A DNA stretch of 64,000 nucleotides, from positions 445,024 to 509,023 of the forward strand of contig NZ_NSKH01000002.1 of assembly GCF_003144095.1 (NCBI RefSeq), written 5' to 3'. Both the position numbers and the translations under genes were made by a program. Positions 160 to 29,846 of this stretch are shown one piece after another. Source of the stretch: Streptomyces sp. ICBB 8177. GTDB lineage: Bacteria; Actinomycetota; Actinomycetes; Streptomycetales; Streptomycetaceae. Under the pieces are notes generated by a model that saw nothing but the letters and a program-made list of their open reading frames with translations, did no database searches and was not told where the DNA came from. How positions within the stretch are numbered: the first letter of the stretch is position 1; every line of letters starts with the position of its first letter.

Positions 160-939
160 ATGAGGCGATTCGAGGACCACGCGGTCCTGATCACGGGGGC
201 GGGCCGGGGCATCGGCGCGGCGACGGCGGCCCGTTTCGCGTCGGAGGGCGCGAGGGTCCTGGTCACGGACGCCGTACGAGAACGTGCCGAGCGGGTCGCC
301 GAGGAGATCGGCGCGCTCGCCCACGCCTGCGACGTGACGGACACAGCGTCCGTCGAGGCGGCCGTGGACCACGCCGTCGCGTCCTTCGGCGGCCTGACCG
401 TCCTGGTCAACAACGCCTACGCCTGCCACCCCGACCCGCCCCGCTTCGAGGACCACGCCGACGAGCCGTGGTACGCGGACTTCGAGGCCACGCTGCACGG
501 TGTCTACCGCTGCTGCCGGGCGGCGCTGCCGCACCTGGCCCGGGCGGACGGCTCGGGCGCGATCGTCACCGTCGGCTCGGTCAACGCGGAGTCGGCCTTC
601 GGCAACCACGCCTACAGCGCGGCGAAGGCGGCCCTGGTCAGCCTGACGAGAACGCTGGCGGCCGAATCGGCCCCCCGAGGCGTCCGCGTCAACCTCGTGG
701 AACCCGGCACCATCCGCACCCCCGCCTGGTCCGACCGCCCCGAGGCCCTGGCCCGGCTGGCGGCCTGCTACCCCCTGGGCCGAGCCGGCGAACCGGAGGA
801 CATCGCCGCGGCCATCGCCTTCCTGGCCTCGGCGGACGCCGCGTGGATCACGGGCGTCACCCTCCCGGTGGACGGAGGCATCTTGACGACGAACGCGGCG
901 ACGGCGGTTCTGCCTTCGTGGGCGGGGGAGCGGGCCTGA
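160..939 (+). CDS. SDR family NAD(P)-dependent oxidoreductase
   Basis: This 259-residue protein has the classical short-chain dehydrogenase layout. The glycine-rich cofactor motif TGAGRGIG is near residues 12-19, the DVT acidic turn near 58-60, and the NNAYA strand motif near 84-88. The catalytic residues are Ser140, Tyr152 and Lys156 in YSAAK. The C-terminal PVDGG is typical of the FabG-like subgroup. It would reduce or oxidise an alcohol or ketone substrate in the cytoplasm; the substrate is not visible. The ATG lies 7 nt after a TACGCT box (147-152), so the transcript may be leaderless. It follows the hydrolase tail by 5 nt. NNAYA in place of the usual NNAG is a small deviation. Confidence 0.88.
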   Translation: MRRFEDHAVLITGAGRGIGAATAARFASEGARVLVTDAVRERAERVAEEIGALAHACDVTDTASVEAAVDHAVASFGGLTVLVNNAYACHPDPPRFEDHADEPWYADFEATLHGVYRCCRAALPHLARADGSGAIVTVGSVNAESAFGNHAYSAAKAALVSLTRTLAAESAPRGVRVNLVEPGTIRTPAWSDRPEALARLAACYPLGRAGEPEDIAAAIAFLASADAAWITGVTLPVDGGILTTNAATAVLPSWAGERA

Positions 940-27493: not shown

Positions 27494-28186
27494 GTGAACG
27501 CTTGTTCAAAGACCGCCGCGAAGACCGAACTGCGCGCGAGAGCGCGGGAGTTGCGAGGAGAGGGGAAGACGTATGACGAGATCGTTGAGGCGTTGGGGGT
27601 GTCGAGGAGTTCGGTGTCGCTGTGGGTGAGGGATCTGGCTCCGCCTGCCCGGCCCAGGCGCAAGCCGGACTGGGGTCCGTACCGCGAACGGACCCGCCTC
27701 GCCAGGGAGGAGGCGAAGGCGGCGGCCAGGGCCGAGGTCGGTTGCCTGACGGACCGGGAACTGTTCATCGCGGGGGTGGCGCTCTATTGGGCCGAGGGGA
27801 GCAAGAGCAAGCCTTACCGGATCGATGAGTCGGTGATCTTTGTCAATAGTGACCCGGACGTGATCGAGGTCTACCTGGCGTGGCTCCAGTTGCTTGGTGT
27901 CGACCCTGGCAGGCTGCGCTTCCGACTGATGATCCACGAGTCCGCCGACGTAGCCGCCGCAGAGCGGTATTGGGCCGAACTTGTCGGCGACGGCTCGGCT
28001 GCGTTCGGCAAGACGACGCTCAAGCGCCACAATCCTGCGACGGTCCGGAAGAGCGTCGGTGAGGGGTATCGGGGCTGCCTCGCGGTCAAAGTGCTCAACG
28101 GCGCCGACCTATACCGTCGCATCGAAGGCTGGTGGTGCGGCATAGTAGGTGTCGGCAAGCGGCGCCAAAGAGAATCGCCCGCTTGA
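27494..28186 (+). CDS. HTH protein with a LAGLIDADG-like domain, next to tRNA-Gln
   Basis: A 230-residue protein of a conserved actinobacterial family of unknown function. Residues 10-50 form a helix-turn-helix (GKTYDEIVEALGVSRSSVSLWV). The rest contains LFIAGVALYWAEGSKSK, VIFVNSDPDVIEVYLAWLQLLGV, HESADVAAAERYW and TLKRHNPATVRKSVGEGYRGCL. The first of these resembles a LAGLIDADG helix (AG...EG), so a DNA-cleaving or DNA-binding fold is possible. Base composition is less G/C-extreme than its neighbours. GTG 27494 is the likely start. It ends 7 bp before the tRNA. Confidence 0.75.
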   Translation: MNACSKTAAKTELRARARELRGEGKTYDEIVEALGVSRSSVSLWVRDLAPPARPRRKPDWGPYRERTRLAREEAKAAARAEVGCLTDRELFIAGVALYWAEGSKSKPYRIDESVIFVNSDPDVIEVYLAWLQLLGVDPGRLRFRLMIHESADVAAAERYWAELVGDGSAAFGKTTLKRHNPATVRKSVGEGYRGCLAVKVLNGADLYRRIEGWWCGIVGVGKRRQRESPA

Positions 28187-28193
28187 CAAGCGT

Positions 28194-28266
28194 TCCGCCG
28201 TAGTGTAATTGGCAGCACGGGAGCTTTTGGTGCTCTTCGGTCCGGGTTCGAGTCCTGGCGGCGGAG
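28194..28266 (+). tRNA. tRNA-Gln (anticodon UUG)
   Basis: The 73-nt cloverleaf has acceptor arms TCCGCCG (28194-28200) and CGGCGGA (28259-28265) with discriminator G. The D-loop is AATTGGCAGC. The anticodon stem GGAGC/GCTCT has the 7-nt loop TTTTGGT, whose central triplet TTG reads CAA. The T arm is CCGGG-TTCGAGT-CCTGG. CCA is not encoded, as is common in actinomycetes. In Streptomyces CAA is rare, so this is the minor glutamine isoacceptor. Confidence 0.95.
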
Positions 28267-28282
28267 CTTAAGGTTCGAATGA

Positions 28283-28308
28283 GGGCCCCGGTCGGCTGAC
28301 CGGGGCCC
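28283..28308 (+). terminator. Terminator after tRNA-Gln
   Basis: GGGCCCCGGTC and GACCGGGGCCC form a perfect 11-bp stem with loop GGCT, followed by TTCGCTT. It closes the tRNA transcript before glmU. Confidence 0.88.
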
Positions 28309-28403: not shown

Positions 28404-29846
28404 GTGAGCCCCATCCGACCGGCTGCCGTCGTCGTCCTTGCCGCGGGTGAGGGCACCCGCATGAAGTCGGCGACCCCCAAGGTGCTGCACGAGATCTGCG
28501 GCCGCTCCCTGGTGGGCCACGTGGCCGCCGCGGCCCGTGAGCTGGACCCCGAGCACCTGGTCGTCGTCGTCGGCCACGCCCGCGAGCAGGTCGCCGCGCA
28601 CCTCGCCGAGATCGACCCCGCCGCCCGCACCGCCGTCCAGGCGGAGCAGAACGGCACCGGTCACGCCGTCCGCACCGCCCTGGACGCGCTGGCCGCCGAC
28701 GGCGTGGCGCTCGACGGCACCGTGGTGATCACCTGCGGCGACACCCCGCTGCTGACCGCGGCCACGTTGCGCGAGCTGGCCGGAGCCCACGAGCGCGACG
28801 GCAACGCGGTGACCGTGCTGACCGCCGAGGTGCCGGACGCCACCGGCTACGGCCGCATCGTGCGCGAGGCCGACGGCTCGGTCGCCGGCATCGTCGAGCA
28901 GAAGGACGCCGACGCCGCGCAGCGCGCGATCCGGGAGATCAACTCGGGTGTGTTCGCCTTCGACGCGAAGCTGCTGGCGGAGGCGCTGTCGAAGATCACC
29001 ACGGACAACGCGCAGGGCGAGGAGTACCTGACCGACACGCTGGCGATCCTGCGGGCGAGCGGTCACCGGGTGGGTGCCTCGCTCGCCGCGGACCACCGCG
29101 AGGTGGCCGGCATCAACAACCGGGTCCAGTTGGCGCAGGCGCGCCGGATGCTCAACGACCGCCTGCTGCGGGACGCGATGCTGGCCGGTACGACGGTCGT
29201 GGATCCGGCGACGACGTGGGTGGACGTGACGGTGGAGTTCGAGCCGGACACGGTGGTGCACCCGGGGACGCAGCTGCGGGGTGCGACGCGGCTGGCGGCC
29301 GGTGCGCAGGTGGGCCCGAACTCGACGCTGACGGACACCGTGGTGGGCGAGGGCGCGAAGGTGAGTTTCACGGTGGCGGAGGGCGCGTTGATCGGCCCGG
29401 AGGCCAGCGTGGGCCCGTACGCGTACCTGCGGCCGGGGACGCGGATGGCGCGCGGCTCGAAGGCGGGCACGTACGTGGAGATGAAGAACGCGTCGATCGG
29501 TGAGGGCACGAAGGTGCCGCACCTGTCGTACGTGGGTGACGCGACGATCGGTGAGCACACCAACATCGGTGCGGCGAGCGTGTTCGTGAACTACGACGGT
29601 GAGCACAAGCACCACACGACGGTGGGCAGCTACTGCAAGACGGGTGCGGACAACATGTTCGTGGCGCCTGTCACAGTCGGGGACGGTGTCTACACGGCGG
29701 CCGGTTCTGTGATCATCAAGGACGTGCCGTCGGGCGCGCTGGCGGTCGCCCGTGGCCAGCAGCGCAATATCGAAGGCTGGGTGGTCCGCAAGCGGCCGGG
29801 GAGCGGTGCCGCGAAGGCCGCGGAGCGGGCCGAAAGTGGCGAGTGA
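28404..29846 (+). CDS. glmU: Bifunctional GlcNAc-1-phosphate uridyltransferase / GlcN-1-phosphate acetyltransferase GlmU
   Basis: A 480-residue enzyme giving UDP-GlcNAc for peptidoglycan. The N-terminal nucleotidyltransferase starts VVLAAGEGTRMKSATPKVLHE and contains QAEQNGTGHAV and CGDTPLL. The C-terminal half is a left-handed beta-helix with hexapeptide repeats (GEGAKVSFTVAEGALIGPEA, YVEMKNASIG, NYDGEHKHHT), including the catalytic His region. GTG 28404 has GAGGAG upstream. It is followed by prs, a conserved neighbour pair across Gram-positives. The C-terminus is Ala/Glu-rich. Confidence 0.96.
   Translation: MSPIRPAAVVVLAAGEGTRMKSATPKVLHEICGRSLVGHVAAAARELDPEHLVVVVGHAREQVAAHLAEIDPAARTAVQAEQNGTGHAVRTALDALAADGVALDGTVVITCGDTPLLTAATLRELAGAHERDGNAVTVLTAEVPDATGYGRIVREADGSVAGIVEQKDADAAQRAIREINSGVFAFDAKLLAEALSKITTDNAQGEEYLTDTLAILRASGHRVGASLAADHREVAGINNRVQLAQARRMLNDRLLRDAMLAGTTVVDPATTWVDVTVEFEPDTVVHPGTQLRGATRLAAGAQVGPNSTLTDTVVGEGAKVSFTVAEGALIGPEASVGPYAYLRPGTRMARGSKAGTYVEMKNASIGEGTKVPHLSYVGDATIGEHTNIGAASVFVNYDGEHKHHTTVGSYCKTGADNMFVAPVTVGDGVYTAAGSVIIKDVPSGALAVARGQQRNIEGWVVRKRPGSGAAKAAERAESGE

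Follow-up and report, generated by a model that had tools for sequence, protein, structure and literature searches.

Why does a gene for a DNA-binding protein stop just short of a glutamine tRNA gene in a Streptomyces chromosome, and what does its product do there? The window (the whole stretch of DNA analyzed, 64,000 nucleotides from Streptomyces sp. ICBB 8177) carries at 27494–28186, on the plus strand, an open reading frame with a GTG start encoding 230 amino acids. It is present in a single copy in the 6.33-Mb genome and has 81 intact orthologs. A first-pass annotation suggested that it may be a domesticated homing nuclease that protects or regulates the tRNA locus. We favor another reading and consider it probable, namely that the protein is a freestanding LAGLIDADG-type homing endonuclease at tRNA loci and that it drives replacement of a tRNA gene that is presumably essential.

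The gene, its tRNA, and the neighborhood

The tRNAGln(UUG) gene is placed by ARAGORN at 28194–28267, on the same strand as the open reading frame, and Rfam concurs (28194–28266, 53.8 bits). With the stop of the reading frame at 28186, the gap is exactly 7 bp, as the first-pass annotation had it. There are 63 Rfam tRNA places in the 6.33-Mb genome, with an ARAGORN anticodon for 62; among these occur one tRNAGln(UUG), the copy in the window, and one tRNAGln(CUG). At the remaining place the anticodon, read by eye, is TCC (Gly).

Upstream, and divergently transcribed, is a fatty-acid desaturase gene (Pfam; the NCBIfam match is below the cut-off). Downstream from the tRNA follow glmU (28404–29846, plus strand; NCBIfam), a ribose-phosphate diphosphokinase gene, and pth. 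The glmU gene is found in 147/147 genomes and forms the conserved downstream flank. The GC3 of the window gene is 0.788 vs. 0.869–0.945 in nine neighboring genes, in line with the earlier remark that it uses more A/T-ending codons than they do; the average over the 81 orthologs is 0.848.

An integrative element at the tRNA was considered and ruled out. The gene precedes the tRNA on the 5′ side, and it can end within the 5′ part of the tRNA; an integrase-type element would instead have its integrase gene beside the tRNA and be inserted at the 3′ end. No integrase was identified adjacent to it, the desaturase gene and glmU being there instead.

An HTH followed by a LAGLIDADG-like domain

The DNA-binding HTH of the first-pass annotation is recovered in Pfam as HTH_23 (residues 10–47, 26.3 bits vs. 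a cut-off of 24.6). We delimit the HTH domain to residues 9–47 (27518–27634, plus strand) on the basis of that match, the model helices (5–22, 27–34, and 38–44), and the Mantel tests given below. Beyond the HTH, the window protein has no curated family match in Pfam, PHROG, or NCBIfam. In these family scans, matches of any strength are confined to the HTH part; no LAGLIDADG model of Pfam matches the protein, and no GIY-YIG family of Pfam, PHROG, or NCBIfam does. The distant relative L186 matches LAGLIDADG_3 in Pfam at E = 0.017, below the cut-off.

The putative nuclease domain spans residues 84–227 (27743–28174, plus strand). Family profiles were built from 20 or 21 relatives, and over this C-terminal domain I-DmoI is their only match among solved chains, a marginal one (best E of 0.0017 with A1 and 0.0064 with A4). 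In these matches, the AEG-x-K of the family aligns on the second LAGLIDADG motif of I-DmoI. The I-DmoI chain of an entry titled E117A matches more weakly (E of 0.21 and 0.072). Weaker still is the match to the mutant Q42A/K120M (E of 0.52 and 0.18). The corresponding LAGLIDADG-like motif of the window protein, IAGVALYWAEGSK (27767–27805, plus strand), includes the AG...AEGSK segment (residues 93–104) and the acidic residue E101, which aligns to E117 of I-DmoI. In the 20-row alignment E101 is nearly invariant and G102 invariant; in the 21-row alignment both are nearly invariant. By analogy, E101 may be the catalytic acidic residue.

For the whole protein, the AlphaFold model reaches a pLDDT of 84.2. 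A VIA-align search with this model returns HTH proteins on top, and the I-DmoI rows (Z of 5.2–6.0) are tied with unrelated folds; for that reason the domain was modeled alone (pLDDT 86.9, pTM 0.82). With the lone domain, the top 16 rows of VIA-align are all homing endonucleases (15 of I-DmoI and one of I-Tsp061I), at Z of 7.2 to 5.8 over 81–88 residues with an rmsd of 3.0–3.4, and the first unrelated row has a Z of 4.7. These Z values are below 8, and thus modest, so that the LAGLIDADG claim is carried by fold and motif together. Foldseek gives no useful match against the PDB and viral models; there, taken alone, an OmpA-like protein ranks first (E of 7e-4, TM of 0.37). The resemblance to homing endonucleases suggested in the first pass is thus borne out by the fold search, at moderate strength, and we describe the C-terminal domain as LAGLIDADG-like.

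Most Streptomyces orthologs carry an N-terminal extension of ~60 amino acids that is absent from the window protein. It looks by eye like another HTH; in Pfam, a pair of HTH stretches is recovered from L216 and L217, relatives from outside Streptomyces, but a single stretch from L025 of Streptomyces. Among the 15 closest ortholog pairs, dN/dS is 0.11–0.28 in 13, and the two others have values of 0.37 and 0.59; across the 1319 pairs in which dS is below 0.9, the median is 0.37. These ratios indicate purifying selection in the close intact pairs.

Residence at tRNA genes across the family

Given 63 tRNA places in 6.33 Mb, the chance that a tRNA starts within ~250 bp of a random gene end is ~0.25%. 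A tRNA is found on the 3′ side of 81/81 intact Streptomycetaceae orthologs and, beyond that family, at 24 of the 28 places that could be evaluated; the adjacency of gene and tRNA therefore exceeds chance, and that orthologs adjoin tRNAs, as the first-pass annotation invited one to check, is confirmed. The places outside come from a search of the phylum, with matches in 35 of 396 Actinomycetota genomes and 29 places outside Streptomycetaceae. At the four evaluable places that remain, two have the tRNA on the 5′ side and two (L276 and L277) have none. The tRNAs at the 24 places are those for Gln(UUG), Asn(GUU), Lys(CUU), Thr(GGU), or Pro(UGG). In L173, L175, L259, and L264–L267, the 3′ tRNA is present on the opposite strand; in L187 and L274, a tRNAGlu lies on the 5′ side, also on the opposite strand.

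A pattern scan of genome contigs yields 18 loci, 17 of them evaluable, and a 3′ tRNA in 17/17, including an Omnitrophota contig with a relative at tRNAGly. Three relatives of nuclease type found in viral contigs lie ahead of tRNAs for Leu, Val, and Lys within tRNA arrays. For the nuclease-type loci of genome and viral contigs together, residence at a tRNA occurs in 20/20 evaluable cases, a count that excludes L203 and L206–L209, the C-terminal part of which is not LAGLIDADG-like. In a class of 66 genomes, 16 have a match, with a 3′ tRNA at 13 of 15 evaluable loci (the exceptions being L271 and L272). L225 and L270/L279 lie at contig ends and are not evaluable. The phylum, pattern-scan, and 66-genome searches overlap (for example, L183/L210, L169/L217, and L188/L215/L269), and the counts are given per search, unsummed.

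In L174, L177, L178, L181, L184, L186, and L260, the stop codon of the gene is the conserved TAG of the tRNA itself (positions 8–10), and the tRNAs donating it are of different isotypes; the stop of L203, L204, and L214 reaches to that same position. Adjacency to tRNAs is a property of the whole family and more than inherited synteny. Plain synteny with glmU was likewise considered and ruled out, with the pair found ~8–9 kb away from glmU in three genomes (see below) and other clades residing at other tRNAs.

No tRNA is nearby in L271, L272, and L277, which are mutually alike and all without the AEG motif (tblastn did not recover L277, and its motif status is judged from the translation), nor at the broken locus L276. 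The latter retains AEG, although stop codons interrupt it, and its neighbor is a group I intron (581–859, minus strand; RF00028, 88.7 bits). Homing endonuclease genes often adjoin group I introns.

Related arrangements occur in viral tRNA arrays with other nuclease domains. A similar HTH is joined to a PD-(D/E)XK domain in L203 (PDDEXK_5, E of 1.9e-7 in Pfam) and to an HNH domain in L206 (HNH_3, E of 3.4e-10 in Pfam); Pfam, applied to L208 as well, lists no HNH model there. L203 adjoins tRNAGly, a tRNA lies shortly before L206 and L207, L208 shares part of its span with a tRNA that Rfam scores weakly, and L209 has no tRNA. As a side observation, L203, L206, L207, and L208 look like domain shuffling around tRNA genes, similar HTHs being joined to PD-(D/E)XK or HNH-like domains.

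Presence, loss, and remnants

The gene has a match in 95 of 147 Streptomycetales genomes. With the addition of the congener G001 (n = 148), the tRNAGln/glmU locus was scored as intact in 81, remnant or broken in 19, and without match in 45, with 3 having no tRNAGln there. The 130 Streptomycetaceae loci comprise 81 intact, 18 remnant, and 31 undetected; the resulting 49/130 broken or undetected is a count of loci and not of loss events. Many loci scored as "without" retain ~90 bp resembling the 3′ end of the gene. Where the gene is intact, tRNAGln(UUG) follows in 81/81, with a gap of −15 to 45 (median 11).

Two deviations from this arrangement were seen. In G036, G082, and G110 (L081, L057, and L119), the region upstream of glmU has no tRNAGln(UUG). 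In G041, G042, and G066 (L154, L155, and L156), gene and tRNAGln are paired ~8–9 kb from glmU, in the other orientation; as the pair is still joined there, a local rearrangement has kept it together.

Alignment of 50 gene-less or remnant genomes gives 90% conservation at 19 of 150 upstream columns, nearly all in one block. This block is the former 3′ coding end of the gene (28112–28146, plus strand, in the window), TACCGTCGC...GGCATAGT, and, by eye, it ends in a −10-like CATAGT. It is kept in most gene-less genomes and, among the 40 rows listed, missing from G011, G069, G079, and G141. We regard it as probably the promoter of tRNAGln, embedded in the open reading frame.

A promoter at that position, together with the purifying selection and the combination of an HTH with a LAGLIDADG-like domain, would suit a domesticated regulator, a WhiA-like transcription factor that would bind the tRNA gene as its operator and adjust tRNA expression. 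We consider this quite unlikely. Almost every aligned relative retains the acidic residue of the motif; at 49/130 loci the gene is broken or undetected; the tRNA isotype differs between clades; and none of the three relatives lacking the motif resides at a tRNA. The same retention of the acid and the same frequency of broken or undetected loci, with a tRNA that is unstable where the gene is intact, leave the protective or regulatory role proposed in the first pass unsupported. Its notion of domestication fits another part of the family: L271, L272, and L277 look domesticated and are candidates for it, but these are the relatives without AEG and without a nearby tRNA.

A hypervariable tRNA between conserved flanks

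At the 81 intact loci, tRNAGln(UUG) has a mean pairwise identity of 0.70 with a minimum of 0.46, and single linkage with a threshold of 15% difference sorts it into nine classes. These divergent tRNAs look functional, since T at position 1 is kept in 81/81 and the GAG end, as trimmed, in 80/81. As controls, tRNAPro(UGG) of the window genome is found with at least 95% identity in 131 of 132 Streptomycetaceae genomes (the exception being G048), and tRNAGln(CUG) is present in 132/132 (best E of at most 5e-21) with at least 95% identity among the matches listed. The latter is somewhat less conserved, because in roughly a quarter of the genomes, or more, the best match is weaker than those listed. 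The tRNAGln(UUG) of the window, in turn, reaches at least 92% identity in only three of 132 genomes (its own, G077, and G037), and 76/132 have no match at 1e-5. In the Asn-type clade, tRNAAsn varies by eye in the anticodon and T stems, less strongly.

The variation is sharply bounded. Between the window genome and its congener G001, identity is 0.98 upstream and 0.95 downstream, with 0.73 in the gene and 0.64 in the tRNA. In blocks of 50 bases, the upstream flank and the HTH are 90%–100% identical, except for the first block, at the alignment edge; identity then falls to 49%–82% from about residue 34 onward and to 40%–45% around the junction of gene and tRNA, and at least 94% is regained ~30 bp past the tRNA, with 94%–100% downstream. 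The swapped tract, nuclease domain plus tRNA, thus covers approximately 27595–28294 (plus strand). Close pairs, with an upstream flank identity of at least 0.80 and a downstream one of at least 0.85, number 36 among the 81 intact loci, and the identity of the tRNA is below 0.75 in 21 of them.

Mantel tests give correlations of 0.54 between the upstream and downstream flanks and of 0.38 between the HTH and the upstream flank. For the nuclease domain against the upstream flank, r is 0.08 (p of 0.09), and for the tRNA it is 0.02 upstream and 0.01 downstream, neither significant. From these values, flanks and HTH share a history not followed by the nuclease domain and the tRNA. The tRNA correlates weakly with the nuclease core (0.11, p of 0.002) and more strongly with the C terminus of the protein (0.43, p of 0.0005). 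Its strong correlation with the adjacent C-terminal codons is what linkage alone would give.

The frequency of swaps is associated with the gene. With a downstream flank of at least 0.80 and a tRNA below 0.75, swaps are counted in 99/154 intact–intact pairs and in 37/61 and 47/79 of the mixed pairs involving an intact gene, vs. 1/16 gene-less, 9/26 gene-less/remnant, and 3/13 remnant pairs; the pairs are not statistically independent, and the gene-less pairs are few (16). With a downstream flank of at least 0.85, the figures are 31/53 for intact–intact pairs vs. 0/5, 0/4, and 0/2 in the pair classes without an intact gene. Swaps of the tRNA are frequent between carriers and rare between gene-less genomes.

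The tRNA might also vary for another cause, such as tRNA-cleaving toxins acting on tRNAGln(UUG), with the gene a passive neighbor carried along by recombination. The tRNA can indeed change while the nuclease core does not, and it correlates best with the C-terminal codons next to it. Yet swaps are frequent only in pairs with at least one intact gene, and the family occupies many different tRNAs; we hold this explanation to be very improbable. The two parts can combine in both ways: G081 and G095 have the tRNA in common and different nuclease domains, and G076 and G081 show the reverse. The tRNA of the window is identical to that of G077. Such exceptions weigh against the homing reading.

As for donors, a tblastn of the protein against 50,697 records of phages and 72,556 of plasmids is without a match; in phages, two of the tRNA alleles have matches of only 80%–84% and one has none. 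A linked pair of variable nuclease domain and tRNA, with relatives in viral tRNA arrays, could be read as a toxin–immunity-like defence, in which the nuclease attacks the tRNA genes of incoming phages or plasmids, the divergent host tRNA is the immune copy, and diversity stems from an arms race with the invaders. Against it, PADLOC gives only a trivial match (E of 0.022, over the HTH), the four identified neighbors are the desaturase gene, glmU, the ribose-phosphate diphosphokinase gene, and pth, and homing explains the virus-borne relatives more easily. Defence thus appears unlikely.

A proposed homing mechanism with replacement of the tRNA

The homing endonuclease reading brings together four observations: residence at tRNA loci over unrelated isotypes, a LAGLIDADG-like domain with a conserved acid, patchy presence with remnants, and a nuclease domain and tRNA replaced between conserved flanks. 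Patchy presence, horizontal replacement at one site, and degeneration are features like those of homing endonucleases. In the scheme that we propose, a freestanding gene living at tRNA genes would encode an N-terminal HTH joined to a LAGLIDADG-type nuclease, probably dimeric because the protein carries one motif. The nuclease would cut alleles of the tRNA gene other than the one linked to it. Recombinational repair from the chromosome bearing the cassette, to judge from the swapped tracts, would then copy the nuclease domain together with the linked tRNA. The copied tRNA would restore function and resist recutting; restoration would be needed, since tRNAGln(UUG) is single copy and presumably essential.

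We advance a wider version more tentatively, giving it a little less than an even chance. It would be a natural home-and-rescue drive in bacterial chromosomes, in which a tRNA-resident nuclease cuts rival alleles of an essential single-copy tRNA and spreads its own specificity domain along with a working, cleavage-resistant tRNA. Repeated turnover would leave one tRNA hypervariable and the others conserved, with the HTH as an interchangeable front end.

Relation to known systems

I-DmoI, an archaeal LAGLIDADG homing endonuclease, is the closest solved structure by profile and VIA-align, with E101 placed on its E117. It has two motifs per chain, its host is an rRNA gene, and it is not known to carry an HTH. 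Unlike I-DmoI, which is intron-encoded, the window protein has one motif and is freestanding beside a tRNA. The Streptomyces regulator WhiA, as far as the excerpts on it describe, likewise combines an HTH with a LAGLIDADG-like domain. WhiA is a conserved regulator not known to have the nuclease motif. Its HTH is C-terminal (from the name of the Pfam model), whereas in the window protein the HTH occupies residues 9–47 and the nuclease-like domain comes after; the window family, moreover, keeps the motif, is patchy, and sits at tRNAs.

The excerpts on SegB of phages T4 and T6 describe a GIY-YIG homing endonuclease that is encoded within a tRNA cluster and targets an intergenic region between tRNAs; in T4 × T2 coinfections it is passed on with high frequency, and segB genes colocalize with many tRNA isotypes in phages (PMC2988022, PMC13096335). 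The window gene resembles SegB in being a freestanding gene, for a putative homing endonuclease, located at a tRNA gene. It differs in that SegB is GIY-YIG and phage-borne, with no replacement of a single-copy chromosomal tRNA described in those excerpts, whereas the window protein is LAGLIDADG-like. HNH endonucleases recur inside the tRNA arrays of mycobacteria and mycobacteriophages and, in the excerpt, are proposed to alter the tRNA repertoire (PMC5966550). Those enzymes lie in multi-tRNA arrays, whereas the present family is LAGLIDADG-like and is found at one chromosomal tRNA. SegB, the nearest published case in the literature covered, and the HNH enzymes work alike but belong to enzyme families different from that of the window gene. 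In the open-licence PMC literature, the titles and abstract starts among the matches listed mention no chromosomal tRNA-resident LAGLIDADG family and no such tRNA swap.

The engineered home-and-rescue and Cleave-and-Rescue drives of insects, in the excerpts describing them, direct a nuclease at an essential gene and supply a linked working copy (PMC7968924, PMC7951863). Those drives are man-made; the system in the window would be natural. If the proposed reading is true, a selfish DNA-cutting gene attacks an essential and universally conserved chromosomal target and pays with a replacement copy, which would explain the wholesale exchange of one tRNA in a genome. The family would then be a natural counterpart of the engineered rescue drives and would tie chromosomal tRNAs to viral tRNA arrays.
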